DNA of 64,000 nt, taken from Tissierellia bacterium (GTDB lineage Bacteria; Bacillota; Clostridia; Tissierellales; Peptoniphilaceae). The position numbers were made by a program, and so were the translations under genes. Location: the NCBI GenBank assembly GCA_030538075.1, contig JAUNUQ010000013.1, positions 1-64,000 of the forward strand. The letters run 5' to 3'. The notes beneath the pieces are model-generated. The model had not been told where the DNA came from, did not search any database, and was given only the letters and a program-made list of their open reading frames with translations. This document shows, piece after piece, positions 3,028-28,334 of this stretch. Position 1 is the stretch's first letter. Each line of letters starts with the position of its first letter.

Positions 3028-4524
3028 ATGAGGCGAAAACTATTTTTGGGTGTTCTCTCTACCCTGGTCTTTATTTTACTGATGATGTCCATCACATACA
3101 ACTACGGGCGATATATGAGTAGAGAACCCGCTGAGTATGGGTTAACCCAGCGCAGAATCCAGTACATTCGAGGAGATCAGATCGACACGAAACTGAATCC
3201 GAAAGAGCTAATCGGTGAAGGATCACTACCAGAGATCACGATCCTAACTGAAAATCGTCAAGAACGAACCCTAGGGCTCTATGATGGGCGCATGCATTAT
3301 TCTGGCATGATTTCCCAGCGCGAATTTAGGTCCAATGCAATAGCACAGACCGATATCTTGAACGGTAAACAGGTCGGCTATCAAATCGATAACCAAGTAA
3401 ATAGAGAATCCAAAACCAATATGCAGAGCGTCGGCACCATAAAATCCGGCATGCCTTTATACGCAGAGGATTTTGATCAGGTGCTCAACCTTACGGCATT
3501 AGATTACTTGGGAGAGGTCATCTATATCGATTCAAATCAACCCATCCCATCCGAGATACAAATGCAGCTCCTAGATCATGGCTATACAGAGCATCGATTG
3601 CCACTGCCTTCAACGATAGAAATTCTCGCATGGGGCATAACCGGACATATTTACACCTCAAGTATCACATTGATGAGTCTACTTCTCTATGTCCTTTTAT
3701 TTATGGCTTTTATGCAGTTCCAAACCGCATCTAAAAAGGAGTATCGAATCCAGTCTAACGAAAGAGCAGTGATACTAGAAGAATTTCTAAATGTCAACAG
3801 CCCAATTTTTTTGCTAAATGGGATATTGACCCTTGGACTTGCAGCCTTCTTCGAAATAAGCCCAGTATTTCCCGAGTTGAGTTTGGAAAAGGGAATCTTG
3901 CTCAGGGCTGCTCTAGTGCATATGTTACTCATCCCTCTCTTAAATGGACTCGCTTTTCTGAGCATCAAAACGCAGAAACCAAGGGAGGCAAAGATGAGAG
4001 AAGATTTACGTAGATTGCCCTGGTTGAGAGGCCTGCTTTATGTCCTGTTCTCAGTTGGACTCTTAATCTCAAGCTATATCTTCGTCCAGTTGACATTTGG
4101 CATGGCGACAATGGTCGGGAGTAGACAGAGCTACTCCCAATACTCGGCTTCACAAGAATGGATCTTTTTTATGAAATTCTTGATACCCTATCTGTCCATA
4201 CTGATTCTCGCCACTTTTGGCTGTATGTATTTCATTGTAAAGGGCTTGATTCAAAGATCATTACACGATCAAGCTCCTGCCATAAGCGGTGCAAATCCAG
4301 TCCAGCTACTAAAACAATATGGAAAGGAAATTACAATTCCAATCGGGTTCTCCTTTTTGATCGGTGTACTGTTAATCTACCGCAGAAGTCCTATCGAGGT
4401 CGGGCTCAACTTCGCATATCATCTAAGCTGGATGATCGCCCTTCTCCTCTTCCTCGGATGGATTTTGAGATGCCTCCCGATGGGAGGCGATCAAAGGATG
4501 GATTCTACTAGGGTAGCAGACTAA
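3028..4524 (+). CDS. Uncharacterised polytopic membrane protein
   Basis: The gene encodes 498 residues. An N-terminal helix (about residues 6-24) is followed by a roughly 180-residue extracytoplasmic region rich in charged residues, then about seven helices grouped in two blocks (about 205-295 and 335-480). The layout resembles permease subunits of ABC-type exporters, but I recognise no FtsX or ABC-2 signature and assign no family. AGGAGG lies 6 bases before the ATG. It is the first large gene of a plus-strand cluster that continues with an orphan solute-binding-like lipoprotein and two ATPase/permease pairs. A role in that cassette is inference from position only. Confidence 0.7.
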   Translation: MRRKLFLGVLSTLVFILLMMSITYNYGRYMSREPAEYGLTQRRIQYIRGDQIDTKLNPKELIGEGSLPEITILTENRQERTLGLYDGRMHYSGMISQREFRSNAIAQTDILNGKQVGYQIDNQVNRESKTNMQSVGTIKSGMPLYAEDFDQVLNLTALDYLGEVIYIDSNQPIPSEIQMQLLDHGYTEHRLPLPSTIEILAWGITGHIYTSSITLMSLLLYVLLFMAFMQFQTASKKEYRIQSNERAVILEEFLNVNSPIFLLNGILTLGLAAFFEISPVFPELSLEKGILLRAALVHMLLIPLLNGLAFLSIKTQKPREAKMREDLRRLPWLRGLLYVLFSVGLLISSYIFVQLTFGMATMVGSRQSYSQYSASQEWIFFMKFLIPYLSILILATFGCMYFIVKGLIQRSLHDQAPAISGANPVQLLKQYGKEITIPIGFSFLIGVLLIYRRSPIEVGLNFAYHLSWMIALLLFLGWILRCLPMGGDQRMDSTRVAD

Positions 4525-4656
4525 ATGATAGAAGTGAACTACTATTATAACAATGGGTTAAACTAGGTCTACTTTATTGACGGGGATATTTTTTACTATA
4601 TGTATACTGACTTAGAGCTCGACGTTTTGTACTCAATTATTGAATATAGTTTCTAA
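4525..4656 (+). pseudogene. Possible small interrupted ORF
   Basis: Directly after the preceding stop, an ATG opens 13 codons, meets TAG at 4564-4566, and the same frame then runs 29 more codons, rich in Tyr, Asp and Ile, to TAA at 4654-4656. No good ribosome-binding site precedes the ATG. The reading is suggestive of a small broken gene but could be chance in AT-rich DNA. No family recognised. Confidence 0.2.
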
Positions 4657-4735
4657 TGATACTATTAGGAAGAAAAATCACTTATGTATATTTTGAGATT
4701 TGCTTATGTAGTATGAAGATACGAGGAGAACGAAT

Positions 4736-5242
4736 ATGAGACAGACAAGATTAGAACGCTGGGTTCGTAAAGTGGTTACAAAAGAGAATATTCTCCGTTT
4801 TTTGCGTAAGAGATGGAAGTTGCTAATCTTGCTAGTTTTCTTGGGACATGATGGTTTTCGTCTGGCGTTTCCACAACAGATCGGCGATTTCTTTAACACG
4901 GATCAGGTGATAAAGGTCGATGCTTTTCGGGGAAATATGCATCCAGTCAAGGTCGTTACTTTGTCTGATGAAGAGACGAAGCAATTATTGCAGACTTTAG
5001 ACCAGGACTATGTATCCTTTCTTGCACAGAATCTATTCCATCAACTAAAACCGCTCCCTCGATTTTTTCATGGTTATGGTCATGTCTATATTTTCTATCT
5101 AGAGGGTGGTGATCAGGTGCGGGTTGATATAGGTGGGTACATACGCATTGCCAGATTTGGTTCGCGAGAGGGAGTCTATCATATACGTTCCACTCTCCTA
5201 CAGGATCCTCCCCATAAATGGATGGAACAATTGCCACAATAG
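4736..5242 (+). CDS. Hypothetical membrane-anchored protein, 168 aa
   Basis: The N-terminus is basic (residues 1-31, many Arg and Lys) and is followed by a short hydrophobic stretch (about 32-42, LLILLVFLG), which would leave the rest outside the membrane. The remaining 125 residues look like a small mixed alpha/beta domain with a YIFYLEGG strand near residue 120. An AGGAG lies 8 bases before the ATG. I recognise no family. It sits between the 498-residue membrane protein and the solute-binding-like lipoprotein in the same direction and may belong to that cassette. Confidence 0.6.
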   Translation: MRQTRLERWVRKVVTKENILRFLRKRWKLLILLVFLGHDGFRLAFPQQIGDFFNTDQVIKVDAFRGNMHPVKVVTLSDEETKQLLQTLDQDYVSFLAQNLFHQLKPLPRFFHGYGHVYIFYLEGGDQVRVDIGGYIRIARFGSREGVYHIRSTLLQDPPHKWMEQLPQ

Positions 5243-5356
5243 CACCTACAGAGAAAATCAAAAGCGAATACTTGACGGTTATCACCAATTCCTAGAGAGA
5301 TCACTAAATACTACCCGGAAGGCAGATTCGCTTTTCTTATAAGACAGGGAGGAATG

Positions 5357-6895
5357 ATGAAACGAAAATTCTGTTTACTCCTAAGCATATTGTTTATTCT
5401 CGCACAGGTTGCATGTGTTTCGAATGAGGATCAGACACCAATCCAAGGTACTTCTACGGAAAGTGTAAGTGGACAAGTCCTTTTAAACTGGAATCTGGGG
5501 CTATTTAACCAAGAGGTGAGCCAGGGGGAATTAGTTGAAATATTAGAAGACGGACTTAACGAGATTCTCACCGAAAAGGGAAAGACCTACCGAGTGAAGC
5601 TCCATTATCCCAAGCTCTATGAGAGGGAAGTATTGGACGGGGTGAAATTAGAACAGATTGATTTGGTTCGGGAGGTCCGTGAATCTGCCGGGCAGTTTGA
5701 TCTTGTGACGATGGTGGATACCCAGCAAGAGGCGAACCAGATCGAACGACCATATTTCGAGCTGGCAAAAGAGGGCTATCTATATGAGATCGAGAGGGAG
5801 AGATTGGCGACCACCCAGATATCGGATCAAGACTGGGAGCTGGCACAGATCGACTCTAAAGTCTATGGAATTGGGTTTCAAATGCCTCAGCTTATCGGTA
5901 TGAAGTATTCGGTGGATGGATTAGAAAAAAGCGGGATTGATTCGGAAAGACTCTCTGCAAGTATTTTTGAAAATATAGAAATTTACGAGGAATATCGCCG
6001 AAAAACAGGATCGATCCCGATTCAGTGGTTTGGTTTTCAACTATTCAACTACATAAACAATCCCCTATTTCTCCCCTGTAATAACCTCTGCTGGGAGGAG
6101 GGGAGGGGATTTACTTCGATTGCAGATTTAGAAGGGATGTCAACACTGTTTCAAAATGCACTAGAATTACAAAGGAGGGGCCTTGTTCAATCGGTCAATG
6201 TGGAGACAGGCTTAGGGGCGGATTTTTTAGTCACGACGATTGGCAGTCCGATTTTTAATGAGTTGCCCTATGAAGATAATGAAGAGATCTGGATCGATAA
6301 GGCTCTAGAGGATAGAAAACTGCTCTATATCCCAAATCCGAGCCTAGCGGTCTATGATCCCGCCAATGGGGATCTGCGAACGGCGATTCTCAGAGACAGT
6401 TCGCATCCTGAGGAGGCCCTTGACTTACTACGCCTCTTAACCGAGGATCCAGATATGGCAAATCTGATGCGATATGGAACTGTCGAGGTGATAGACCAGG
6501 GCAAAGCGGGCAGGATGTTGTCATCAACAGCATTTATGGAACTCCAGTATTACGGACCTAGAATTGCCAATGGTGCATTGTCTGATTCTACAGAAGTAGA
6601 GACGGCTGACAAAGCCGCATTTAAGCAGAAGTATGAGAGGACGCTACCACAGGACTACCCGAGGGGATTCCGATTTGATCCGGTACCGGTCTTGGAACAG
6701 ATCAGCAGGACCAATGAAGTAATTGGTCCGATGGCGACTTCAGAGATTTCTGAGGAGATTCGGATGCTTGCCTTTTCCGATGCACAGGAGGTCTTGGAAC
6801 GGCTTCAAAGGGAGCTGGAGGATGCGGGTATGGACGAGATCATTCAAGAGGCAAACCATCAGCTGGAGGAATGGAGGAAGGGATCGCCCAACTGA
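5357..6895 (+). CDS. Solute-binding-protein-like lipoprotein (family 1 type)
   Basis: A signal peptide with a relaxed lipobox (AQVAC, acylated Cys near residue 20) anchors a protein of about 510 residues. Size, acidic composition and the C-terminal amphipathic helix (AGMDEIIQEA, about 30 residues from the end) are typical of family 1 extracellular solute-binding proteins. I chose the second of two adjacent ATGs because GGAGG then lies at a normal 4-base distance. No MalF/MalG-type permease lies nearby. Instead the next genes encode ABC-2-type ATPases and giant permeases. It may therefore act as a sensor or ligand-delivery subunit of a different transporter class, which is inference. Confidence 0.75.
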   Translation: MKRKFCLLLSILFILAQVACVSNEDQTPIQGTSTESVSGQVLLNWNLGLFNQEVSQGELVEILEDGLNEILTEKGKTYRVKLHYPKLYEREVLDGVKLEQIDLVREVRESAGQFDLVTMVDTQQEANQIERPYFELAKEGYLYEIERERLATTQISDQDWELAQIDSKVYGIGFQMPQLIGMKYSVDGLEKSGIDSERLSASIFENIEIYEEYRRKTGSIPIQWFGFQLFNYINNPLFLPCNNLCWEEGRGFTSIADLEGMSTLFQNALELQRRGLVQSVNVETGLGADFLVTTIGSPIFNELPYEDNEEIWIDKALEDRKLLYIPNPSLAVYDPANGDLRTAILRDSSHPEEALDLLRLLTEDPDMANLMRYGTVEVIDQGKAGRMLSSTAFMELQYYGPRIANGALSDSTEVETADKAAFKQKYERTLPQDYPRGFRFDPVPVLEQISRTNEVIGPMATSEISEEIRMLAFSDAQEVLERLQRELEDAGMDEIIQEANHQLEEWRKGSPN

Positions 6896-6914
6896 GATAG
6901 GATTGGAGGAGGAG

Positions 6915-8106
6915 ATGAAGAAGAAATGGATTCGAAGGCTCTATGCCATATTATTTTGGGTTCTGATCGTTGGATGTAATAGAAAACCAGTTGAGATAAC
7001 ATCGGATAATAATACTGAGATGCAGCTCTTTCATCGAGGCTCCTTGGGGAGCTTCCCCGGAGAGGGGGGACCTATTATGTCGATCTGAATGGTCTGCTCC
7101 ATTTCTTTGACTACGATCAAGAGGCTTCCGTCTATGTCTGCAACAAACCCAATTGTAAGCATGAAACTTGGGATCCCCACCGACCTGAAGAACTCCAGTG
7201 CAACGCGGCTCTGTATGGTTTATCGAGCGGCTTTGTAGAGATGGGTAAGCTCTATATTTTCATCCCAAATCAGGACATGGATCAAATACAAATCGTGGTG
7301 TCAGAGCCGGATCGAAGTGAACAGAGAATTCTGACCAGTATCGATGCAAGCCATATCTCTTCCTATGGAGTACTCAGCAATAAACTGTATTTGACGAGCA
7401 ACCAATTCATCTATGATACCGACGAAGAAGGGCTGATTGTCGAGACCTTTCAAATTGCATCCTCGGTGTATTGCATTGATCTGGAGACGGGAAAAAAGCT
7501 TGGGAGCGGGATCTGGGAAAGGCCTATAATGGCGGTTTGGAGATCTTTTGTGGAGATATTGAGAATCTCTATCTGCAATACAGCTATTTTGAGCAGCCCT
7601 TTGATGGAGAAAATTTTGAAGAGGCATTACACCACGCCGTAATCTATCGGCAGCCCCTTGAAGGAGAGATGATGGAGCAAGTGCTCACAGACGCAGCGGC
7701 ACCTTATCACCTATTTCGAGGATGGGTGCAAAATGATCAGCTCATCTGCAGTGGGACGAATGCCCTGAGGGATGCGTCCGTGACGACAGGTAATTATCTG
7801 TTGACATTCGATCTAGAAGAGGAGAAATTGGTAGAAGAGATTGAACTTGCTTCCTTTCCGTTTTTTGTAGATGGTGAGATCTTTTATTTAGAGCAGGGCG
7901 AGACTGATTATACCCATGTCGATCTGAGGACCAATCAAAAGGAAAAATTAGCTGGTTTGGAACTGGATGACCTCTGGCCAATGGCAAGGGCTGGGGAGGA
8001 TTTTTATTTTGCTAAGCAGAAGAAAGAGGAATCAGAGAACTGGACCTTTGTCTTTGTTCGTAGGAATCCATTTCTTAGGGGTGAAATCGAGGTCATCCAT
8101 CCCTAG
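6915..8106 (+). pseudogene. Lipoprotein gene interrupted by two -1 shifts
   Basis: The start (ATG after GGAGGAGG) gives a lipoprotein signal with lipobox IVGC. The zero frame stops at 7086-7088, but the -1 frame continues from about 7067 (YYVDLNGLLHFFDYD, then a Cys-x4-Cys-x-His segment VCNKPNCKH). A second -1 shift at about 7497 restores coding to the TAG at 8104-8106. The joined product would be about 397 residues. The repeated short strand motifs suggest a beta-propeller-like lipoprotein of a kind often found beside ABC cassettes. The shift points are G GGG GGA and A AAA AAG, both in the phase required for -1 slippage. It could be a true pseudogene, a recoded gene or a homopolymer sequencing error. 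Confidence 0.75.
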
Positions 8107-8160
8107 TCTAAGTTCTATATTCTGTGCACTCTAGTCTGAAAAGAGGGATCTAAGCTTAAA

Positions 8161-9042
8161 GTGATGAAATTGACGAAGAGATATGGAAAGATCGAAGCCC
8201 TAAAGAACATCGATATCGACTTTGATTGTGGGCTGTATGCCCTCTTAGGTCCAAACGGATCGGGAAAGAGCACTCTTCTAAACTGTTTGGTCGTAAGTAT
8301 CGCACCGACATCCGGTCGCATTCAATGGAATGGAGAGGAGATCCGCTCCTTAGGAAAAGTATATCGAAAGCTCTTGGGTTTTGTGCCACAGCAACAGGGT
8401 CTTTATGAAAGCTTTACCGGACGGCACTTCCTAGCCTATTAAGCGACCTTAAAAGATATTTCGAAATCGGAGATGGAGAAGGAACTGGATCGGGTATTAA
8501 AGCTAGTCCAGTTGGAGGAGGAAGCCGATCGAATGATTGGAACTTATTCCGGGGGAATGAAGCAGAGACTGTTGATAGCACAGGCGGTGCTCGGCAATCC
8601 TTCGATCCTCATTTTGGATGAGCCGACCGCTGGTCTCGATCCCAAAGAACGCAGCCGAATGAAGGATCTATTTTCAAAGTTGGCGGCGGATTCCATTGTA
8701 TTGATCGCCACCCATGTGGTCTCAGATATTGAGGATGTTGCAAAGGAGATCTTCCTCTTGGGTGAGGGGGAGATCCTCGCAAGTGGCTCTTCTAAGGACC
8801 TCACCAGAGAACTGGAAAAGCAGATCTATATCCTAGAAGCTGCTGCAGAGGAACTCGAGAGAATTCGAACGGAGTTTTCTGTATTATCGATTGTATATGA
8901 AAAAGAGCAGATCCGAGTGAGAATCCATTCAAAGAAACCGCCGATTTCATGGATCTATCACCAGGATTCTCCACGTCTGGAAGATGTCTACCTCTCCTAT
9001 TTTCAAGAAGAGGAGGCATGTTATGCAACTTCTACTCTTTGA
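8161..9042 (+). pseudogene. ABC-2-type transporter ATPase with an in-frame TAA
   Basis: The ATPase signatures are complete: Walker A GPNGSGKST, Q-loop near VPQQQG, signature YSGGMKQR, Walker B ILILDEPTAGLD, and His switch ATHVV. The frame is broken by TAA at 8440-8442, between FLAY and ATLKD, a segment normally continuous in this family. The N-terminus is short. In frame, 9 bases before the GTG, AAG (8152-8154) sits where a start after GAGGGA would be expected, so the original ATG may also be lost. The 3' end overlaps the following permease by 20 bases. It would energise the adjacent fused permease. As read, only two separate fragments can be translated. Confidence 0.85.
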
Positions 9043-11278
9043 GCTGTGGGAAGAACTACGAAAACCATCTTTTCTCTATGTCCTGACGATCGCCGTCCTG
9101 CTCAACGGCCTGTTGCAATACTTTTCTATATACAATTCATGGATTCAACCGGAAGACTATCGTTACGCCTATCAGCAGCTGGATCTGATTCCTGAATCGG
9201 ACCGACGTATCATTTTGGAGGAGCAGTTAGAGTCGATAAGCCATAGGGCAGATCATCCCCTTCTATTGTCGAGGGAGCGGGGGAAGGAGTTCCCGATTCT
9301 CTCAGAACTGCTGCGGCAAGCAGAGCATATTGAGGACTATCCCTCCTATTTGGAGGAGGTCCAAGTTGCTGCGAAGCAGCCGAGTATTGCAATTTTTCGT
9401 GATGCCTCTGAGTTTTCCGTGTTAAATGCACAGAAGACAGCAGATGATTTTTTGGTGCTCAAGGGAACGGAGCTTCAATGGGTCAATGGACATGGCTTCG
9501 AGAAGGCCACAGAGTCTGCCCTCAGTGATGAGATTATTGTTCTGCTTTTATACTATTTTATTGGTTATCCCATCCTCAAGAACAAAGAGACCGGTCTCTT
9601 TCATTTCCTTCGAACAACTCCACTTGGAAGAACGACCTATATTCTGTCCCGGATTTTTATTGCACTAATCTTTTCGGGAGTGTTCACTCTATTGATCTGG
9701 GGCTCAAATTACTGGCTTAGCATTGCAAAATATGGGGAAATTGATCTGTCTGCTCCCTTGCAATCGCTGATGGGCTATGGGGGAAGCGGTGTCTCTCTGA
9801 CAATCGGGTCCTTTTGGATCCGGTTTCTGCTGCTAAAAATGCTGATCTATTTTCTGATTTCTCTCCTTTTCCTCTGGCTATCCATTACAGCGAGCTCCGG
9901 AATCGTGCTCTATTTTCGGTCTGTGTTGATAGGACTCATATCCTATTTCATGCTTCAATTTATTCCAGTGCATTCGAAATTGGAAGGCCTTCGTTACATC
10001 AATCTCATCTCATTTATTGGAGTGACGCCCAATTTAAAACACTATATCAACCTCAATTTGTTCGGACAGCCAGTTGGTATCCATCAACTCTATCCAAAGG
10101 TCTTGGTTCTATTGATCCTCATCTTGATTTCTGTCATCCTTTGGGAATTCGGCAATCACCCTGTGTCCATTTCTTTTCAACCTGCTAGTCACAAGTTTTG
10201 GATTCGTTGGGATAGGATAGGCTCCATAGTACTTCAGGAAGGGTATAAACTTTTGATTTCACAGAGAGGGCTGCTGGTTCTCCTCGTACTCCTACTATCG
10301 CAAATCTGGTTGTACTCCGTAAAAGACATCTCCCTTGGAGAGCAGGAGCTCTATTACCGCAGTTTTATGAACCGTCTGTCCGGCTATTGGAATCCGGACA
10401 AGACAAAGTGGGTGCGAGAGTTCGATCGGCAGTTTGAGGAGCAAAAAAGAATTCGGGATTCTGCCCTTCTGCGATTTGAGAAAGGTGAGATAGCAGAACT
10501 GGAAAAAAACTTAACCCTGGCCCATACCTCTGCGGTATTAAAGAGAGAGTCTGCATTTCAAAAGGTGCAAAGCAGATTGTTTTACCTAGCAGATCAATAC
10601 CGATTGGAAGGTAGGGTTCTACCGGTTGTGTATGAAGAGGGTGCCCTACGGGTCTTTGGGCTTTCCAGGCGGGGATATCAAGAAGATATGATCTCTGCAG
10701 TGTTCTTATTGGTCCCTATGATCACGGTACTCCCTTCTTATTACATGATGGAGAAAAGGACAGGGTTGGATGGCTTGATCCGAACCACTTATAATGGAAG
10801 GAGGATTCATCGTCACAGGAAGAGGCAAGTAGGGGTGTATTTCACCGTCTTCTCCTTTGTGATAACGGCATCGCCTGAACTCCTATTTGTTGCAAAGAAT
10901 CTAGGTTTACCCGATTTGTCTTTAAATGCATACGGAATACCGGAGATTGCGAACTTAAGAGCACTTCCCATCTTTCTTCGGCTCCTCCTAGCATATGGGA
11001 TCAGGCTTGCTATGGCTCTAATCGTCCTCTGGTCGGTGCAGCAGCTTGCAAATCATATGGACAACCTGATCAAAGTCCAGTCAATCCTCACGGGAGTCTA
11101 CCTACTGCCCATCGCCCTTCATCTAATGGGAATGAAATGGATTGATTTTTTCTCCTTTAATCCACTGTTCTCAGGTAATCTACTGCTCAACGGGGAAGGA
11201 CACTGGTGGCTACTCTATTTGGTGAATGTAGCTTTCGGATTATACTGCTTTGATCGAGTTTGTAAAAGAAGAAACTGA
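9023..11278 (+). CDS. Fused-dimer ABC-2-type permease, 751 aa
   Basis: The chosen ATG has AGGAGG 6 bases upstream and overlaps the ATPase gene. The protein reads as two similar permease units in tandem. Each starts with a helix (about residues 10-30 and 405-425), continues with an extracytoplasmic domain of about 130-150 residues, and ends with several helices. Matching motifs NKETGLFHFLRTTPLGR (about 187-203) and MEKRTGLDGLIRTTYNGRR (about 576-594) lie 389 residues apart at the start of each C-terminal block. ABC-2 exporters normally use two separate chains, so this gene supplies the whole membrane part alone. The substrate is unknown. Confidence 0.8.
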   Translation: MQLLLFELWEELRKPSFLYVLTIAVLLNGLLQYFSIYNSWIQPEDYRYAYQQLDLIPESDRRIILEEQLESISHRADHPLLLSRERGKEFPILSELLRQAEHIEDYPSYLEEVQVAAKQPSIAIFRDASEFSVLNAQKTADDFLVLKGTELQWVNGHGFEKATESALSDEIIVLLLYYFIGYPILKNKETGLFHFLRTTPLGRTTYILSRIFIALIFSGVFTLLIWGSNYWLSIAKYGEIDLSAPLQSLMGYGGSGVSLTIGSFWIRFLLLKMLIYFLISLLFLWLSITASSGIVLYFRSVLIGLISYFMLQFIPVHSKLEGLRYINLISFIGVTPNLKHYINLNLFGQPVGIHQLYPKVLVLLILILISVILWEFGNHPVSISFQPASHKFWIRWDRIGSIVLQEGYKLLISQRGLLVLLVLLLSQIWLYSVKDISLGEQELYYRSFMNRLSGYWNPDKTKWVREFDRQFEEQKRIRDSALLRFEKGEIAELEKNLTLAHTSAVLKRESAFQKVQSRLFYLADQYRLEGRVLPVVYEEGALRVFGLSRRGYQEDMISAVFLLVPMITVLPSYYMMEKRTGLDGLIRTTYNGRRIHRHRKRQVGVYFTVFSFVITASPELLFVAKNLGLPDLSLNAYGIPEIANLRALPIFLRLLLAYGIRLAMALIVLWSVQQLANHMDNLIKVQSILTGVYLLPIALHLMGMKWIDFFSFNPLFSGNLLLNGEGHWWLLYLVNVAFGLYCFDRVCKRRN

Positions 11279-11301
11279 AAGTTGGAGCATAGGAGGTAGA
11301 T

Positions 11302-13798
11302 ATGAATTACCGTTTGACCTCTTAAAGATCCTCCGGGAGAGAAGGTGGCTGATTCTGCTTGTTTTATCAGTGTTAATTGGCGGCGCTTTCGTGGGCTATC
11401 AGAGGATCAACCACTATCAACATAGTCAGGAACTATATGAAAAGTTTGGACCTTGGGCAGAAATCTTAGGACCGATGGAAGCAAATGGAGATAATTCTGC
11501 GGACAATCCATTACAGACCTATGGTACAGCAATCTATGAGGTCTTGGACACGGCGTCTCCGGAGCGTGCAGGAGATACTCCGGCGGCAGTTCTAAGCCTT
11601 TATGAAATCGTCCATCAGTTAGAAGGGACTCCCTGGGAAGATCATCTATTATATCAAGAGAAATTTGATCTACCCTATGAAGCCTTTCATAGAGAGCTGG
11701 TGAAAAAGGCCTATCCCTATGTAAACGAAACGACAACTCTCTATGGCGCCAATCTGGTCAAAAGGACTTTGGATCAAATGTTTAGTCTACCCCTTTTTCT
11801 ACTGCTTCTCATTGTCTGTATCGGGATTTATACTGCCGAATGGGAATCAGGGACTTGGAAGTTCCGTATGATGAATCCAGGGAGCCGTTTTGCTAAACAT
11901 CTGGCTAAAGTGCTCAGTGGGACAATACTGAGTACGTTCTTCATTTTGCTCATCCTACAACTTGTCTATTTTACAGGCGGGCTGTTGGAAGGGTTTGGAC
12001 ATTGGGATTATCCGGTTTTGATTGGTCCGAAATCTGTGTCCGCCGCGGATATTCATCAATACACTTACCGTCTGACGACGGTGGGACGATGGAGCGTCCA
12101 AAGTCTAATGCTCTATATTGTTTTCCTGTTTGCTTCTTTTTCGATTGTGCAGATGATCAGTATTTTTATAAAGGAAAGCATTGGGACCATCCTCTTTTCC
12201 ATGCTGCTCATTGGATCCGTCGTAATTGGGTTTCAGAGATATGTCGCTCAGCCTATGGAGCCCGTCGTGCCTTTTTGGATGCCCTTAGCAGGGGCATCGC
12301 CAGTTGTCCTAATCGAGGAACTTAGAAGAACGATTTTTCCCTTCTTTGTGGTGCCCATCTTTTTTGGGCTCTTGATCACCGCATTATCTGCACTTATGGA
12401 GGGGAGTGCTATTGTCCGCCGTTTCTTATTGACCAGAGTAACAGAACCAATCGAAAGGACTTTTGTAAGATGGGAGAGGGGAAAAAACAACTTATTTCCT
12501 GAGCTGCAACTCGAATGGAAAAAGCTGTGTGCAAGAAAGGGGATAAAGGTCGGCTTACTCATCGGACTTCTGATCCTAGCCTATGCCGGGTATCATGAGA
12601 TGAGCATGTATGATCGAGCATTGGAGACACGACGAGAGGATGCCTTGGAGCTATATGAGGAATTACAAGGGCCGGAAGGAAATACCTTTTCCCAGGGATT
12701 TCGGCGTAGGGTGACTGACTGGATAAAGCGGATGAATCCAAATTGCCAGAGGACTATACGCGAGCTTTAATCAGCGAGGTTGATGAGCAGCAGAGAACAA
12801 ATGAAGAAATATTTAGCGTGGACACTCCCAAACCCAGAGAGAGCTTTGAAATTAGAAAGTGGAAACTCCAGGCAGTGCAGAAGACAGGTCTGATGCCAGA
12901 ACTATCAGAAAGATACAGTTATCAGCCTACAATATTTGATTCACCAGAGGATTTGGAGAGTACATTGCGCCGTAGATTTGTCGAGAGAAACTATACAAAT
13001 GGAATTGAGGGAATGATCGAATCCCAGTTCATCTGGAGTTATTATATTGCTTACGGGATGTTGATCCTGCTATTATTTGGGTCCGGCTTTAGCGAAGAAC
13101 CCCTGAATGGAAAAAGTCATTGGCTATCCAGGTTGCAGCCGAAGAGTAGCATCCGAATTTACTATGGAAAAGTTGGAATTACACTGGGCATCTTCGCAAT
13201 ACTTCTTGGGTTTCTCGCCATCGGTTCTACTGGAATGAGCTCAAGAGCACGCTGGAGGGATAGTGGATACCCGAGTATTCGATATGAACTGGTAGTACCT
13301 TTGGAAGAGGGCGAGCGAATATTGTCAAAGCACAATCCAGAGGAAAAGTCATATTCTCTACAAACACTCTATCAAGCCAGAGGAATAGAATTGTCTCCGG
13401 ATCAAATTACGGAGCGCCTACTACTGCGAATGGAGCCGATCGAAAACGCGAACCGAATACGGATGATGCTATTTGCTATGGGTGTCATCTTTCTTCTCAT
13501 CATGAATCTTTTGATCTCGATGATAACAGCGAATCGATGGCTCTCTACGGCGCTGACGGTGATCATTTCCTTGTCAGGTTATCTGTTGTCAACCAAATTC
13601 CCCCAAATCTCCTCCGTCATTTTACCCTTTGGCTATTTTGATGTGGAGGGAGTTGTAGGAGGGACAAAACTGGTGCTGGAGAATACGCCTGGTGCTTCAC
13701 CAGGGCAGGGAATACTGCTATTTGTCCTATGGTCATGGATCCTATTGGGAATTGGGAGGGCGTGGTTTAATTCCAGAATAGGCAGAAAGGATGGATAA
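11302..13798 (+). pseudogene. Second fused-dimer ABC-2-type permease, frameshifted
   Basis: AGGAGG lies 5 bases before ATG 11302, but that frame stops after six codons. A -1 shift near 11311 joins it to the long frame (FDLLKILRERRWL) running to 12770. Another -1 shift near 12727 (ATA AAG) joins the frame ending at 13798. The full product would be about 830 residues with two related units: LKILRERRWL / LYEKFGP in the first and LEWKKLCARKG / LYEELQGP in the second, each followed by an extracellular domain and helices. The duplication itself argues that the two frames were once one gene. Its partner ATPase follows one base after the stop. Confidence 0.75.
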
Positions 13799-13799
13799 G

Positions 13800-14660
13800 A
13801 TGACAATTCTGAAAATGCAAGACATCGCTTTTGCATATGGATCCAATCAAGTCTTAAAAGGAGTGTCTTACTCCATAGAAGAGCCGGAGATCATCGCATT
13901 GGTTGGACCAAATGGAGTGGGGAAGACGACCCTATTGAATATCATTGCAGGTTTATTGATTCCTGACCGAGGAAGGGTGGAGATTTGCGGGAAATCCAAT
14001 CGTAATCCACAGATCTATCGGGACCTCTCCTATATGGCCGATTCTTCTGTGCTCTATCCCTATCTCACCGGGATGGACCATCTAATTTTTGTCAGCAAAG
14101 CGCAAGAATTAGACCGATCTCGCATAAGAGAGGCAGCGGGGATTTTAGGAATTGAAGCTTTTTCGAATAGACGCGTGGGAGAATATTCTCTGGGTATGAA
14201 ACAGCAGCTACTCTTTACGATGTCGCTACTGAACAAGCCGAAGCTGCTCTTACTAGACGAACCCTTCAATGGTTTGGATCCTACAACGATCATCCGTGTG
14301 CGTCAGATTCTCCTTCGGTTAGCGGAAGAGGGGACTACCATCTTCCTATCCTCTCATAATCTGTCGGAAGTGGATCAGATGGCGGGGAAGGTGATCTTTA
14401 TCTCAAAGGGAGAATTGATAGAAGAGAATATCCGAGAGAGGCAGGATCTCATTTATAGTATCTATGTAACAGAACCGGATGTACTACAAAAAGCGAAGCT
14501 TCCCTATGGTAAATGGAATGGGGATGTTTTTCAACTACAATCTTCACAATTTCCGTTGGATACGGCGCTTCAACAGATTGGGAGGATTACTGTGATATTG
14601 GATATAGAAAAGCATATCTGTGGATCAGAGGAGAGATATCGTGAGCTCTATAATATCTGA
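13800..14660 (+). CDS. ABC-2-type transporter ATPase
   Basis: A protein of 286 residues with Walker A GPNGVGKTT (about residues 38-46), signature YSLGMKQQ (an L replaces the usual G in SGG), Walker B LLLLDEPFNGLD and His switch SSHNL. About 80 C-terminal residues follow, as in CcmA/NatA-type exporter ATPases. ATG 13800 lies one base after the permease stop, with AAAGGA upstream; an ATG at 13791 is possible but has no room for a ribosome-binding site. Unlike the first ATPase of the cassette it is intact. It probably energises the second fused permease. Confidence 0.88.
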   Translation: MTILKMQDIAFAYGSNQVLKGVSYSIEEPEIIALVGPNGVGKTTLLNIIAGLLIPDRGRVEICGKSNRNPQIYRDLSYMADSSVLYPYLTGMDHLIFVSKAQELDRSRIREAAGILGIEAFSNRRVGEYSLGMKQQLLFTMSLLNKPKLLLLDEPFNGLDPTTIIRVRQILLRLAEEGTTIFLSSHNLSEVDQMAGKVIFISKGELIEENIRERQDLIYSIYVTEPDVLQKAKLPYGKWNGDVFQLQSSQFPLDTALQQIGRITVILDIEKHICGSEERYRELYNI

Positions 14661-14761: not shown

Positions 14762-15640
14762 ATGAAAAAGAGAATTGCACTACTGTTCATTCTATTTCTA
14801 TTGTTCTCTCCCTTTGCGCAGACAGCGCAGGCAGATATTGGACCCAAGCCTTCCGTTCGGATAGACTTTACGGGGATGGAGGGAGAGGAGTATTATGTGA
14901 CCCTGCTGCTCACATGGCCGAGCACGGGGCCCTATTCCTATCACAAAGACTATGCGGATGAGAAAGAGAGCAAGGCGGGGGATCGATTTCAGGAGATCGG
15001 CTCTGGTCCCCTTTACTTCTTAGGATACTACGAAGACTGCACGAAAAGCCATCAATTTAAATGGACTTATTATCCACCGACTGAATTTATCGTGGCGATC
15101 TATCACCCAAAGACACAACAGGTCTACCTCAGTGAAGAGACCTTCGATGCCTATGCCTTTAATACCACATATGTGGCGGATTTGTCAGATTTTGAATTCG
15201 CGGCCTATGCACCTACTGTGCAATCGATGGATATGGTTGCAAACTACAACTACTTTGGTGAGATCGGCGGGTTTTTAGCGCGTATGATCGCGACGATCGC
15301 CATTGAATTGGGGATTGCCCGGCTATTTGGGTTTCGAAGCCGAGAGCAGTTTCGCCTGATCGTCATCGCAAATATGGCAACCCAAGGGTTTTTCAATCTC
15401 ATCTTTCAGTTCGTCAACTATAAAGCGGGATATTTGGCCTTTTTTATTCTCTATATTTTGTTGGAGATTTTCGTGTTCCTAATTGAGGGGATCATCTATC
15501 ATATTCGGATGCCAAGGACGATGACAGAACCGGTAAGCCGGCTTAAAATCTGGCTCTATACCCTGTCTGCAAATGCCGTCTCCTTTGGGGTGGGGATTGC
15601 CATTGCCTATCTGATGATCTTGATACAATTTGTAAAATAG
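14762..15640 (+). CDS. Secreted-domain/membrane protein of unknown function
   Basis: A signal peptide (hydrophobic core residues 5-18, probable cleavage after TAQA at about 24) is followed by an extracytoplasmic domain starting DIGPKPSV, a start I associate with an uncharacterised Firmicute family. At about residues 160-290 come four membrane helices. GAGAGGTGAAAG precedes the ATG. It lies 100 bases after the ABC cassette with a possible promoter (TATACT at 14714-14719) between them, so it may be a separate unit. No catalytic motif is visible and function is unknown. Confidence 0.7.
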   Translation: MKKRIALLFILFLLFSPFAQTAQADIGPKPSVRIDFTGMEGEEYYVTLLLTWPSTGPYSYHKDYADEKESKAGDRFQEIGSGPLYFLGYYEDCTKSHQFKWTYYPPTEFIVAIYHPKTQQVYLSEETFDAYAFNTTYVADLSDFEFAAYAPTVQSMDMVANYNYFGEIGGFLARMIATIAIELGIARLFGFRSREQFRLIVIANMATQGFFNLIFQFVNYKAGYLAFFILYILLEIFVFLIEGIIYHIRMPRTMTEPVSRLKIWLYTLSANAVSFGVGIAIAYLMILIQFVK

Positions 15641-15752: not shown

Positions 15753-16637
15753 ATGAAGGGAATTACGAAAATATTGTTATTATTGGTGGTATTGTCTGTT
15801 TTACTCGTAGGCTGTTCACCAAAGGAAAGTGCACCAGCCACAGAGGGTGAAACTACCACCGAGACAGAAGCTGCTGCCAATGAGGGTGAAGCAAAGGACG
15901 ACAACACCTTCGTCGTCGGAATGGAAGCGGCTTATGCTCCATTTAACTGGACCCAGCTTGACGATTCCAATGGGGCAGTACCTCTGGATGGTCTCAAGGA
16001 ATTCGCCGGCGGCTATGACGTGCAGGTTGCAAAGCTGATCGCAGAGGGTCTGGGCAAGGAGCTGGTCGTCAAGAAGATCGAATGGGATGGACTACAACCC
16101 TCTATCCAATCGAATAAGATTGACGCCATTGTCGCTGGGATGTCCCCAAGTGCAGCCAGACGTGAAGTACTCGACTTTACGGACCCCTACTATGCTTCGG
16201 ATCTGGTAGTAGTAGTCAAAGCAGATGGTCCCTTTAAAGATGCAACGAGTTTAGCGGAATTTGCTGGAGCTAAGATCACGGCAATGCTCAATACCTTACA
16301 TTATGCAGCCATCGATCAAATCGAGGGCGTGGACAAACAAGAACCGATTCCGGATTTTTCATCGATGCGAGCGGCACTGCAAGCCGGAAAAATCGACGGT
16401 TATATCTCGGAAAGACCGGAGGCCATCAGTGCCAGTGCGGCGAATCCAGCATTTGCCTTTAATGATTTGACAGACGGCTTCAAGATGGAGTCCGAGGAGA
16501 CCACTGTGGCGGTTGGCGTTGCAAAGGGAAGTCCACTGGTTGACGAGATCAATGAGATCCTAAAGGGCATTACTCCAGAAAAACAAGATGAACTGATGAA
16601 ACAGGCGATCGCCGATCAGCCAGCGGCGATGGAGTAA
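15753..16637 (+). CDS. Polar amino acid ABC transporter, substrate-binding lipoprotein
   Basis: A lipoprotein signal (lipobox LLVGC, Cys21) and an acidic, Thr/Glu-rich linker (about residues 25-50) precede a family 3 solute-binding domain: FVVGMEAAYAPFNW at its start and DGLQPSIQSNKIDAIVAGM at about residues 110-130. Its 294 residues are typical. The domain binds a polar amino acid outside the membrane and passes it to the permease/ATPase pair encoded next. AAAGGAG lies upstream of the ATG. Ligand identity (Gln, Arg, His, Cys or other) cannot be read safely. Confidence 0.92.
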   Translation: MKGITKILLLLVVLSVLLVGCSPKESAPATEGETTTETEAAANEGEAKDDNTFVVGMEAAYAPFNWTQLDDSNGAVPLDGLKEFAGGYDVQVAKLIAEGLGKELVVKKIEWDGLQPSIQSNKIDAIVAGMSPSAARREVLDFTDPYYASDLVVVVKADGPFKDATSLAEFAGAKITAMLNTLHYAAIDQIEGVDKQEPIPDFSSMRAALQAGKIDGYISERPEAISASAANPAFAFNDLTDGFKMESEETTVAVGVAKGSPLVDEINEILKGITPEKQDELMKQAIADQPAAME

Positions 16638-16646
16638 TCAGAGCCG

Positions 16647-17405
16647 ATGGATCTAAATATTGTAGGTGAAATATTTATGCGAAATTGGCCCATGTTTCTA
16701 CGAGGAGCATGGGTCACTTTCTACGTTTCGATCATATCCACACTGATTGGAGCCATGATCGGCTTGGTGGTAGGTGTGGTCAAGACCATGCCCGAACCCA
16801 CACATGGACCGGGGAAATGGGCACTGAAACTGATCAAGATCTTCTTTAATATCTATATCGAAGTCATTCGGGGTACACCGATGATGGTACAGGCCATGGT
16901 GTTCTATTTCGGAATGCCCATCGCCTTCGGCATCGACATCCCGCCTTTGCTCTCCTCCTTTATCATCGTATCGGTGAATACCGGTGCCTATATGGCAGAG
17001 ATCGTACGCGGGGGGATCATCTCCATCGACAAGGGTCAGTTTGAGGCCTTTGACTCCATTGGCATGTCCCATATCCAGGGGATGATCTACATCATATTGC
17101 CCCAGGTGATTCGAAACATCCTGCCGGCTACGGGCAACGAATTTATTGTCAATATCAAAGATACTTCCGTCCTCAATGTCATCCAGGTGACAGAGCTATT
17201 TTTTCAGACCAGATCCGTGGCAGGTGCAAACTTCCGCTATTTTGAAACCTTCTCAATCACCATGGTGATCTACTTGATCATGACCTTTACTGTGACCAGG
17301 CTACTCAGAATGGTCGAGCGAAAGATGGATGGACCGGCGAACTTTATTATGGCGGGCAATCAAATGCAGGTGGTGACCCCAAAGATAGGAGATCTAAATG
17401 ACTGA
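16647..17405 (+). CDS. Polar amino acid ABC transporter permease (HisM/GlnP type)
   Basis: This 252-residue inner-membrane protein has about five helices and the BPD_transp_1 loop [21 protein letters not shown]-type EAA motif at about residues 132-152, which docks with the ATPase. The N-terminal [13 protein letters not shown] helix is typical of the His/Glu/Gln family. It starts 9 bases after the binding-protein stop with only a weak ribosome-binding site, suggesting translation coupled to the upstream gene. Its last 8 bases overlap the ATPase start. Confidence 0.93.
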
Positions 17406-18138
17406 TTCTATATTGGAAGTAAGACAGTTAAAAAAATCCTTTGGAGATCATCCCGTGCTCAAGGGAATAGACTTTGAAGTCAAGGCGGGGGAAGTGGTCT
17501 GCATCATCGGACCGTCTGGATCCGGCAAATCGACACTCCTGCGCTGTATCAACCATCTGGAGATCCCATCCGAAGGTGCGATACTCTATAGGGGCCATGA
17601 CGTGGTAAAAGAGAAGAGCATCGTCGGCAATTATCGCAGCAAGGTGGGAATGGTGTTTCAACACTTTAATCTATTCTCCAATCTGACCATATTGGAGAAT
17701 TGCACCATTGGTCCAATGAAGGTATTGGGTACAGACGCCAAAACGGCGAAGGAGGATGCCCTTAAATATCTGCAACTAGTGGGGATGGACAGCTATATTA
17801 ACGCCAAGCCCAAGCATCTGTCTGGTGGGCAAAAACAGAGAGTGGCCATCGCCCGGTCCCTCAGCATGCATCCAGATGTGCTCCTGTTTGATGAACCCAC
17901 CTCGGCCCTCGACCCAGAGACCGTCGGAGAAGTGCTGGTGGTTATGAAGGACTTGGTCCAGATGGGGATGACCATGCTCGTCGTCACCCATGAGATGGAA
18001 TTCGCCAGGGATGTATCGGATCGAGTGGTCTTTATGGACGATGGACTGATCATAGAAGAGGGATCCCCCGAAGAGATCTTCACAAATCCCAAAAACAGCC
18101 GGACCCAGAATTTCTTACAGCGATTTTTTAATTCCTAA
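17398..18138 (+). CDS. Polar amino acid ABC transporter ATPase (GlnQ type)
   Basis: The 246-residue ATPase has Walker [10 protein letters not shown] (about residues 38-46), Q-loop VFQHFNLF, signature LSGGQKQR, Walker [13 protein letters not shown] and His switch VVTHEM. The C-terminus ([16 protein letters not shown]) is characteristic of GlnQ/ArtP/HisP ATPases. It drives uptake of the amino acid delivered by the lipoprotein. It is the last gene of a three-gene operon that ends at the strong terminator at 18294. Confidence 0.95.
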
Positions 18139-24674: not shown

Positions 24675-25748
24675 ATGCTGCAGAATATGAAAGCAAATCG
24701 CGTGACATCTGTAATCCTGATTTTGGGTCTAGTTGTTGCAATTTTGAGTATCTCTCTTGGCGTATCGCAGATTCAAAATGTCCAAGAAGTAGTCAATTTA
24801 TCAAATCAGTATTAATTTCAATTTGATGAGAGGATGTTGGTTGGCATAGACTCGAGAGATGACTTTGATAGGATATTGACGAAATTCAAGACATCACCTC
24901 ATGCGTTCGCAGTGCAATTAGAGAATATTTATTATGTTATTGACAATAATGGCATGTTAATCTATCCGACCTATTATTCCCTAGACAGGCAATTACCGTA
25001 TCCTATTCTCAAAGGGAGGAATCTATCCTCCGACGATTTTCTGAAGGATCAGGCAGTTGCACTTTTGGGAGATAGGATCGGCATAGAGGTGGGGGATTAT
25101 TATCAGATCGATGAAAATCGATATGAAGTTGTGGGAATAAGCGGCTTCGAGGATCTAGCCGTGCCTCCATTCTCTTTTATTCGTGTCATCTCATTGCTGA
25201 ACCTCCCTGAAGGTGTGATTGATGGTATAGTTGGGGAGAAGAAGATGGTGTTGGGATTCTCGCAAGTAGAGGAGGGGTTTATCGAGTCATTTCGAAAGGA
25301 TTTAGAAGAGAGAGGGATTGTTTATAGGGACGACCCGCCCGGAACAGGGTTAAAAATGGACGAGTCCCTATCCGTCAATCTAGCAAAAACCAGTACTTTT
25401 ATCTATGCGATGGCGCTCTTAAACACCTTTAATATCTCCTTGTTTTGGATCCAAAAAAGAAGGAGAGAAATCGGAATACGAAAGGCAATTGGCTTTACCA
25501 ATGCAGACATCCTGTGGATGCTGATGAAGGAAATGGGGATCTTGGTCTCTAGCTCAGTTATCATTGCGGTTTTGCTCCAGATTATTTTCATGCCTGTAAT
25601 TGAAAAGTATTTATCTGTGAGAATCCGTATTTCTTTTGAACATATTTACATATCCTTATTCTTCGTCATCGGGACGACGATCCTCACGGTGATTATTCCA
25701 GGATACTATGCTTCAAAGATTCAACCGGCAGATGCCATAAGAGGATGA
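24675..25748 (+). pseudogene. FtsX/MacB-type ABC permease with an in-frame TAA
   Basis: The ATG opens an N-terminal helix (about residues 12-30), then TAA at 24813-24815 interrupts codon 47. The same frame continues 311 codons with a MacB-type periplasmic domain (LKGRNLSSDDF, VAPP-like AVPPFS) and the FtsX domain: RRREIGIRKAIGFTNADI at about residues 265-282, three helices, and the family-typical end ASKIQPADAIRG. Family members have no natural stop here, so this reads as a nonsense mutation or readthrough codon. It pairs with the next permease and the LolD-like ATPase. Confidence 0.85.
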
Positions 25749-25752
25749 AGCT

Positions 25753-27027
25753 ATGATCACTCAAACATTATAATCGATGCAAAAGAGATCTCTATCTGTG
25801 CTGTTTATCTTCTTGCAGTTGGTTTTTACTTATTATTTGATCGTTCAGATTTGGGTCAATATCAATCAAGTTAACTATCAGGAGCGGGAATTTGTCAAAC
25901 ACACTAATAATATATTACCCTCGCAGATCTATACGATTTGGGCTTTGGATGATATTCGTACGGGCGAACAGGTGACCAATTTCTTGGAATTGGAGGGGGA
26001 TATTGACAAGGCGATTGCAGATGGGTTACTCAATGAGTATGGTTCCTATGACCTCGTCGAACTGCCATTAAAGGATCCGCTAAAATTCCGCGAATGGAAT
26101 GAACGATTACAAAGCGCTTATGGGAAGTCGCGGTTTCGGACCGAAGCGATCTTAACAGACTTCTCTATTTATGGCAAGATGCGCATTGGCGTAAAGCTTG
26201 GCAGAGGTCTGACGGAGGAGGATTTTCATTTACAGGATCATCATGCTGTTCCGATCTTGATAGGTGCAGGACTGGAGGATATATTCTCAATTGGAGATCA
26301 ATTAGAATTGATCGGGGGAGAAGCAGGTCAGAGTTATATGGGAGATGTCGTCGGAATACTCGAAAGTGGTACGCATTGGGTTAATGAGGACTTCTTTATA
26401 GGTAATTTTTTAGATATGGAATATAGGATGATTTTGCCCTATATCCCCATGACAAGGGATACGCATTGGATGGACGTAAGCATTCGCAGCTCTCGGATGA
26501 TCGTCACAGCCGATGGCGAACCGGAGAATGTGATTGCAGAGCTTTCAAATATGGGGAAATAACGGGGGATTCCCCTTATTATCGAACAACTCAGCAAAAA
26601 TATAGAAATCCATGCCATTCGCCTACAGAGCTATGTGATCGAGAGTTTGGTTACTTCTGGAATTCTGCTGATCGTTGCGATAGCGGGGATTGTAACGACG
26701 ACGATCTCTTCGCTCACTCAGCGTAAATATGAACTTGGCATTCGGATGAGCCTCGGTTTTACAAAGTTTCAAATCTGTGAAATGGTGCTCTTTGAACTAG
26801 GGTTTTTAAATGGATTAGCGGCGACTCTCGTATACTCTGTGATCTATTTGATCGAAAGAAGTACCATGCTGGAAGACATTTACACGAGAATCGGGGTCTT
26901 AACAGATTCGATTACAATAGTGGGTATTCTACTTACGATGACGATGATCCTCTCGGTTTCCGTTTTCATTCCCTGGCTTGTAATCCGGAGGTACACGATT
27001 ATTGATCTGATCCGAAAGGATGAATAG
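25753..27027 (+). pseudogene. Second FtsX-type ABC permease with two in-frame TAA codons
   Basis: AGAGGATGAAGCT precedes ATG 25753, which reads MITQTL, then TAA (25771-25773), then in the same frame SMQKRSLSVLFIFLQ, an N-terminal helix. After about 260 codons a second TAA (26560-26562) is followed in frame by IEQLSKNIEIHAIRLQSYV and a complete FtsX domain with SSLTQRKYELGIRMSLGFTK and three helices, ending at TAG 27025-27027. The intact protein would be about 424 residues. The absence of any frameshift over 1.27 kb suggests recent loss or suppression. Confidence 0.82.
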
Positions 27028-27576: not shown

Positions 27577-27653
27577 GAGAGTATGGGAGAAGTGGGAACG
27601 AGCTGAGTTTCTGTCTCGCCTGTTCGATACACGATTACTTGGAGGAAAAAAAA

Positions 27654-28334
27654 GTGATTGAACTACAGGGGGTAAACAAAGTTTTTGGCAGTGGAGAATC
27701 AGAGGTACGGGCTCTTGTAGATGTTGATCTATTGATCCAATCGGGAGAGTTTGTATCCATCATGGGTCCATCGGGATGTGGTAAGACAACCTTATTAAAT
27801 ATTCTTGGATTGATGGATATTGCTACGAGTGGGAAATATATTCTCGATGGAATCGATACGTCGGGCTTAAATGATGAAAAGAAGGCAAGAACCAGAGCGA
27901 ATCGATTGAGCTTCATATTTCAGAGCTTTGCTCTGATGGAAGGGTACAGTGTCTATGAGAATATTGCTTTGTCCTTGTTCCGAAAAAAGATCTCCACAAA
28001 TGAAAAACGCAGATTAGTGGCGAATGCATTGGGAAAGCTGGATCTAGATGGAATGGAAAAGAAAAACGTAAATCTATTATCGGGTGGACAAAAACAGCGG
28101 GTTGCAATTGCGAGGGCGTTGGTATCGGATTCTCAGCTGATCCTTGCAGATGAGCCAACCGGTGCACTCGATTCAGAAAACTCGCTGCTCCTAATGGATC
28201 TGATCTGCTCCTTAAATCAAATGGGAAAGACAATCGTCGTCATTACACATGATGAAAAAGTCGCCTCCTATGGAAAGCGGTTAATTAAGATGATCGATGG
28301 CCGGATTGTTGAGGACAGCAGTGAAGCTAACTGA
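27654..28334 (+). CDS. LolD/MacB-type ABC transporter ATPase
   Basis: This 226-residue ATPase has Walker A GPSGCGKTT, signature LLSGGQKQR, Walker B LILADEPTGALD and His switch VITHD, the set typical of ATPases that partner FtsX-type mechanotransmission permeases. GTG 27654 with GGAGG 8 bases upstream is preferred over a TTG at 27639. It is intact, whereas both permeases upstream carry stop codons. Such systems export antimicrobial peptides or lipoproteins, or act with sensors in antibiotic resistance. The facing BlaI/M56 pair suggests inducible self-protection. Confidence 0.92.
   Translation: MIELQGVNKVFGSGESEVRALVDVDLLIQSGEFVSIMGPSGCGKTTLLNILGLMDIATSGKYILDGIDTSGLNDEKKARTRANRLSFIFQSFALMEGYSVYENIALSLFRKKISTNEKRRLVANALGKLDLDGMEKKNVNLLSGGQKQRVAIARALVSDSQLILADEPTGALDSENSLLLMDLICSLNQMGKTIVVITHDEKVASYGKRLIKMIDGRIVEDSSEAN

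Follow-up and report, generated by a model that had tools for sequence, protein, structure and literature searches.

Gene Organization of the Cassette

The window, i.e., the whole 64,000-nucleotide stretch of DNA analysed here, is contig C13 of a 2.5-Mb draft genome that consists of 65 contigs and is 98% complete. Eight coding regions were located between positions 3028 and 14660, all on the + strand and in the order given by an earlier reading made from the letters and open reading frames (hereafter, the sequence-only reading). They are listed below together with the evidence used for each assignment.

3028..4524, + strand: 498-aa membrane protein, no family assigned (ORF list, hydropathy)
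4736..5242, + strand: 168-aa protein, no family assigned (ORF list, Pfam, comparison with fetched loci)
5354..6895, + strand: family 1-type solute-binding protein (SBP), 513 aa (DUF3502, profile match to solved SBPs)
6915..8106, + strand: lipoprotein 2 pseudogene, predicted beta-propeller family (profile matches, frame reading)
8161..9042, + strand: ABC-2-type ATPase 1, in-frame TAA (profile matches on either side of the stop)
9023..11278, + strand: permease 1, 751 aa, intact (ORF, profile, AlphaFold model, Foldseek)
11302..13798, + strand: pseudogene of permease 2, ~830 aa when its frames are joined (frame reading, ABC2_membrane_2 below cut-off)
13791..14660, + strand: ABC ATPase 2, complete (Pfam, NCBIfam TIGR03740 below cut-off)

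From the SBP through ATPase 2 the genes overlap or lie ~55 bp or less apart. The gaps are 211 bp after the 498-aa gene and 111 bp after the 168-aa gene, which makes the membership of these first two genes in the unit uncertain. Hydropathy of the 498-aa protein indicated one N-terminal transmembrane (TM) helix followed by a ~190-residue external segment and a TM cluster, and nothing above cut-off was obtained for it in Pfam or NCBIfam. The 168-aa protein possesses a short hydrophobic stretch at its N-terminus, which is below the hydropathy threshold for a TM helix. No relatives of either protein were detected among the fetched loci. Promoter- and terminator-like sites occurred across the cassette at a frequency no higher than in shuffled sequence. 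A 292-aa secreted or membrane protein with no family assigned (14762–15640) directly follows ATPase 2 and is only a possible member of the unit. About 1.1 kb downstream of the decayed cassette lies a complete importer of the polar amino acid type (15753–18138), composed of a binding protein, permease, and ATPase.

Lesions in the Window Copy

Three of the eight genes, encoding lipoprotein 2, ATPase 1, and permease 2, are broken, and the sequence-only reading had treated the cassette as a working one. Lipoprotein 2 is spread over three frames, of which the first starts from the lipobox LIVGC, the second from ~7060 (...YYVDLNGLLHFFDYDQEASVYVCNKPNCKH...), and the third from ~7510. The two frameshifts are hence located near 7060, at a run of six G, and near 7510; the family profile was matched at its positions 56–191 in the second frame and 242–322 in the third. 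ATPase 1 is cut by a TAA at 8440–8442, with Walker A before the stop and the signature and Walker B after it, and the profile is covered from 2 to 97 before the stop and from 99 to 286 after it. The two ATPases described earlier thus comprise one complete gene, ATPase 2, and one reconstruction. Permease 2 consists of two ORFs (to 12770 and from 12743) with a frame change near 12727, so that its earlier length of about 830 aa is also a reconstruction. An ideal SD-ATG is located at 11302, but its frame is closed by a stop seven codons on; the conserved reading is in the next frame. Since this start is in the wrong frame, a second frameshift is suspected just after it, perhaps near the beginning of the gene.

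Altogether, 4 lesions fall within 6.9 kb and none in the ~40 kb of intact neighbouring genes, for which a post hoc probability of ~5e-4 was evaluated assuming uniform distribution. As each of the three in-frame stops is TAA, reassignment of this codon was considered, and it was rejected since TAA terminates 14 of the 36 intact window genes and frameshifts are present too. Phase variation at the G-run at 7060 is ruled out as the whole story by the nonsense codon. Two MacB/FtsX-type permease genes (24675–25748 and 25777–27027), each having one in-frame TAA, lie beside an intact ATPase gene (27639–28334); to judge from these reading frames, a second ABC system in the accessory stretch at 24.7–27.0 kb is also decaying.

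It is highly improbable that the lesions are sequencing or assembly errors and that the organism itself has uninterrupted genes: the contig does belong to a 65-contig draft and one frameshift occurs at the run of six G, but two frameshifts away from homopolymers and a TAA substitution make up a mixture of lesion types, and they cluster in accessory genes, including the two further TAA at 24.7–27.0 kb, with none in 40 kb of neighbours. This mixture of frameshifts and nonsense codons, found in accessory genes only, favours real decay. The window cassette is a damaged, decayed copy of a conserved transporter cassette. The SBP, permease 1, and lipoprotein 2 were each found at one locus only in their own genome. 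Given the damage to three genes (ATPase 1, lipoprotein 2, and permease 2) and the lack of another copy, the pump can hardly work in this genome.

Conservation of a Three-Gene Core

A single-sequence search with permease 1 against named genomes gave no match, and a profile was needed; its scan over 84,980 species genomes yielded 30 loci. They include Alkalibaculum sporogenes, Pseudoflavonifractor, Acetatifactor and other Lachnospiraceae and Oscillospiraceae, and Paenibacillus cellulosilyticus. Among the 27 permease-selected loci that were readable around the permease, three of which are near-copies from Pseudoflavonifractor, lipoprotein 2 is part of the permease's unit in 24. Two of the others (L076 and L088) begin at the edge of a contig, and no lipoprotein 2 was seen in the third, L096. 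In a reverse search, 391 genomes of the class were scanned with a profile of lipoprotein 2, and the permease adjoins lipoprotein 2 in 11 of the 13 other positive genomes. The two exceptions (G387 and G486) are of the same genus as G449, which has the full unit; their lipoprotein 2 genes stand alone, at a distance from any ATPase (L133–L136 and L138–L139, respectively).

These searches define a shared core of lipoprotein 2, ATPase 1, and permease 1, the last a single chain of ~700–850 residues. Intact cassettes with this core are present in numerous bacteria from gut and soil. Recurrence of this order in many genomes indicates that the cassette is more than a chance arrangement. By the same comparison of gene neighbourhoods, permease 2, ATPase 2, and the first two genes are outside the conserved core, although they had been counted as cassette parts. 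The earlier description of an SBP-centred cassette was not supported either: an SBP is missing from most permease 1 loci, which do possess lipoprotein 2. The occurrence of the permeases without the lipoproteins had been named as a refuting observation, and it holds often for the SBP but hardly ever for lipoprotein 2. Hence, the idea of an uncharacterised system combining lipoproteins with ABC-2 components was partly borne out, inasmuch as the set is conserved and no paper on it was found, but its centre was moved from the SBP to lipoprotein 2.

We defined the cassette by a lipoprotein with a lipobox and the motif C-x2-P/A-x-C-x-H-x(n)-C, an ATPase, and a permease containing Y[ILV]N[ILV]N[LFV]FGxP. 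The window copy fits this definition, as the motif residues are present in its lipoprotein 2 and permease 1. These two simple sequence signatures allow us to find in culturable species a recurrent transporter cassette of Bacillota that is apparently undescribed, to which the window adds a decayed copy with an extra SBP, a second permease, and a second ATPase. Genes for a histidine kinase and a response regulator are located within 4 kb of 7 of 35 cassettes, and no two-component genes lie beside the window cassette.

Lipoprotein 2 Family

Lipoprotein 2 of the window has the lipobox IVGC and the motif VCNKPNCKH...C, and matched the family profile with an E value of 6e-17 in a search of its own genome. 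The lipobox Cys is kept in all 27 members, and the motif C-x2-[P/A]-x-C-x-H-x(4-14)-C is kept save in a degenerate Paenibacillus member (L087). The alignment shows no variation in the columns of the lipobox Cys, the His, and the final Cys; the remaining two Cys are found in 90% or more. No Pfam or NCBIfam model above cut-off was obtained for this family except a generic lipoprotein signal. DUF5050 (PF16472) shows a weak likeness to one member, L079 (E 6e-6, 26.0 bits), which is below the cut-off of 27, and it was not matched by the other lipoprotein 2 proteins tested.

An AlphaFold model constructed for one relative (L072) is all-beta with four-strand blades, at moderate confidence (pLDDT 69.5, pTM 0.70). 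The matches of this model in the PDB are beta-propellers, with which the sequence profile agrees weakly, so that lipoprotein 2 is predicted to be a beta-propeller.

Tandem arrays of lipoprotein 2 were observed at some loci. The largest (L132, 2638–17966, in G449) places seven paralogues upstream of one ATPase and permease, several of them separated by near-identical ~127-aa secreted proteins. At another locus (L131, 465–17876, in G550), six lipoprotein 2 genes are interleaved with three two-component systems and followed by an ATPase and permease.

Permeases and ATPases

The 751-aa length given earlier for permease 1 was confirmed, and the gene is intact. The protein is composed of two fused six-TM halves with helical ectodomains and contains the signature YINLNLFGQP at residues 341–350, whose general form is common to permease 1 and its distant relatives. 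It matched the family profile at 9e-214, a value obtained with permease 1 itself a member of that alignment. Its AlphaFold model exhibited two repeats (pLDDT 82.9, pTM 0.72), each consisting of one TM helix, a helical external domain, and further TM helices. The best Foldseek matches were the ABC-2 permeases of PmtCD and NosDFY (probability 1.00), with an E value of ~0.03 that speaks for likeness at the level of fold only. At this level, the model supports permease 1 as a fused dimer of ABC-2 halves. Two fused-dimer permeases had been proposed for the locus, and this description suits permease 1. A search for relatives of permease 2 gave only short, weak, and generic ABC-2 matches. Permease 2 also matched ABC-2 models below their cut-offs, of which ABC2_membrane_2 fell just short at 9e-6.

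For ATPase 1, the best NCBIfam match was drrA (4.8e-31) over the C-terminal piece, and Walker A, the signature, and Walker B are visible. Its motifs are those of the ABC-2 group; the gene cut by TAA in the window is intact in relatives. ATPase 2 is similar to BcrA and lantibiotic-protection proteins, scoring 177 bits against TIGR03740, for which the cut-off is 309.75. ATPase 1 scored lower than ATPase 2 against the lantibiotic-protection model, and it lies far below the curated lantibiotic-type models. In Candidatus Avimonas (L078, 12450–18745), the core is directly followed by a second ABC-2 module of a 699-aa lipoprotein, an ATPase, and 2–3 permease ORFs, which resembles the added permease 2 and ATPase 2 of the window.

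The Solute-Binding Protein

The family 1-like SBP of the sequence-only reading was verified by a match of Pfam DUF3502 at the C-terminus (E 8e-11). The protein has a near-lipobox AQVAC, and a profile including it matched the solved family 1 SBPs 5swa, AlgQ1/2, and YesO. No MalF/MalG-type permease with an EAA motif was found between 2.5 and 15 kb of the window. The SBP is absent from all 100 nearest genomes, and 249 genomes of the order gave only one weak match, which is MalG-linked. Consistent association of the lipoprotein homologues with MalFG had been named as refuting, and the outcome was mixed for the SBP: of 20 homologue loci in the class, 13 are with MalFG-type permeases, 1 is with an ABC-2 cassette (L027, the same as locus L076), and 6 are with neither.

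That a family 1-type SBP sits with an ABC-2 ATPase and permease 1, as claimed earlier, recurs in three cassettes outside the window. The proposed neighbourhood search for the same order recovered SBP, lipoprotein 2, ATPase, and permease in G502 (L140), exactly as in the window. An Acetatifactor MAG (L074) has the order lipoprotein 2, SBP, ATPase, and permease, and G521 (L076) has SBP, ATPase, and permease at a contig end. L074 and L140 came from the permease and lipoprotein searches and not from the SBP-homologue set. Another 27 genomes from the genus to which G502 belongs all lack the SBP. From these occurrences, the SBP is a real member of the cassette, though an optional and uncommon one.

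In the permease tree, all four SBP-bearing cassettes are inside one nine-member part (93/94). The SBP tree (97/92) and the permease tree (99/99) each pair L140 with L074 as sisters, and this agreement of sequence trees, in which the two cassettes have long branches, offers support, not proof, for a partnership of SBP and permease. The SBPs linked to the cassette have diverged strongly from those linked to MalFG. The window SBP forms a very long branch with no firm placement; the partnership may be of single origin, with the window branches too long to place. The SBP might instead be a chance neighbour left from a decayed LplABC-type importer, as the majority of SBP homologues serve MalFG and the window SBP has no firm place in the tree. 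This is very unlikely, however, because three other lineages show the SBP with these neighbours, one of them in the identical order, the two trees agree for L140 and L074, and the SBP-bearing permeases share one part of the tree. Tentatively, and rating it below an even chance, we propose that a family 1 SBP, recruited from sugar importers to a pump of the export or mechanotransmission type, is dedicated to an ABC-2 (type V) transporter and serves it together with a Cys3His beta-propeller lipoprotein. If true, the SBP-bearing branch represents a solute-binding protein serving an ABC-2 pump, in conflict with the rule that assigns SBPs to type I/II importers.

Comparison with Known Systems

The closest analogies are found among lipoprotein-assisted pumps. 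In LanI and LanFEG, the lipoprotein binds a lantibiotic and the ABC pump expels it (PMC5786555). LanFEG/LanI and CprABC resemble the cassette in having an ABC-2-type ATPase and permeases with a ligand-binding, membrane-associated lipoprotein (PMC5786555). A two-component system is often present in them (PMC5786555); one lies near 7 of 35 related cassettes and none beside the window cassette. The Lan/Cpr permeases are separate six-TM proteins, whereas the cassette permease is one fused chain of 670–870 aa. Lipoprotein 2 differs from LanI as a ~400-aa predicted beta-propeller; the cassette ATPase scores far under the LanF-type cut-off, and no lantibiotic genes were seen near the cassettes.

NosD works with NosFY in a copper relay (PMC13068155). 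NosDFY, a top Foldseek match, shares with the cassette an ABC-2-fold permease having an extracytoplasmic repeat protein as its partner. NosD is, however, a right-handed beta-helix, while lipoprotein 2 is modelled as beta-propeller blades; furthermore, the window cassette has neither NosZ nor NosL relatives, and its permease is single-chain.

In Bacillus subtilis, the YtrBCDEF operon combines a putative substrate-binding protein with two ATPases and two permeases (PMC8060467), a make-up shared by the window cassette. YtrF is nevertheless a MacB/FtsX-like membrane protein and not an SBP, and the Ytr permeases are not fused. Neither the MacB/FtsX-like YtrF nor the GntR-type repressor YtrA has a counterpart between 2.5 and 15 kb of the window. 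The sugar importers LplABC and YtcQ-YtcP-YteP have the DUF3502-type SBP family in common with the cassette, which lacks their MalF/MalG-type permease. The cassette is apparently a type V ABC transporter whose partner lipoproteins are extracellular; literature searches found no description of this gene set.

Proposed Function and Alternatives

We give about an even chance to the following reading: the window holds a damaged copy of a conserved cassette that, in intact relatives, would form a type V pump whose lipoproteins help to clear an envelope-active ligand. In this type V (ABC-2) pump, the fused permease would be powered by two ATPase subunits. Outside the membrane, the lipoproteins would capture an amphipathic or envelope-derived ligand and would either accept it from the extracellular domains of the permease or hand it over to them, so that the envelope would be protected or remodelled. 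This division of work is likened to that of LanI with LanFEG or NosD with NosFY. Clearance of a putative envelope-active ligand is the likeliest function, followed by mechanical work or metal delivery via Cys3His, and then by import. The two-component genes at 7 of 35 cassettes and the arrays of up to seven lipoprotein paralogues hint toward an envelope response. Two-component neighbours would suit a role in envelope stress, as a hint that is far from general and absent in most relatives.

It is unlikely, in our estimate, that no solute is moved and that ATP cycles work the propeller lipoprotein, as in NosDFY or FtsEX, to load metal via Cys3His or switch an envelope enzyme. The invariant C...C.H...C in an extracellular lipoprotein and the presence of NosFY and NosDFY among the top Foldseek matches point in this direction, NosDFY being a copper-delivery ABC system (PMC13068155). 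Against it, L087 of Paenibacillus has the motif in a degenerate form, the Cys residues of the motif could simply form disulfides, and no metalloenzyme was noticed beside the cassettes.

An unusual importer, in which the SBP and the propeller lipoprotein feed an oligosaccharide, glycopeptide, or metal ligand to an inward-working ABC-2-fold permease, is quite unlikely. Its argument is drawn from the SBP, whose family is sugar-binding (solved relatives 5swa, AlgQ1/2, and YesO) and whose homologues lie beside classical importers at 13 of 20 loci; YtrBCDEF has likewise been argued to be an importer from its putative binding protein (PMC8060467). The permease, however, has neither an EAA motif nor a relation to MalFG, and its best folds are the export or mechanotransmission permeases PmtCD and NosDFY. 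In addition, the ATPase is of the DrrA/GldA export type, and the SBP is absent from most cassettes.

Broken Copies in Related Loci

The window cassette, being a decayed copy, serves as a caution, and any function should be examined in relatives whose genes are whole. Splits or deletions affect one or more core genes in 10 of 36 related loci (L073, L080, L085, L092, L096, L097, L098, L099, L144, and L145), which are mostly metagenome bins in which breaks are inseparable from assembly error. Pseudoflavonifractor sp. An44 is a strain record not labelled as a MAG, and its permease (L080, 2310–4694) is split by a stop. The same permease is whole in An85 and An386a (L079 and L081), and comparison of the three sequences suggests an apparent natural loss in a living lineage.
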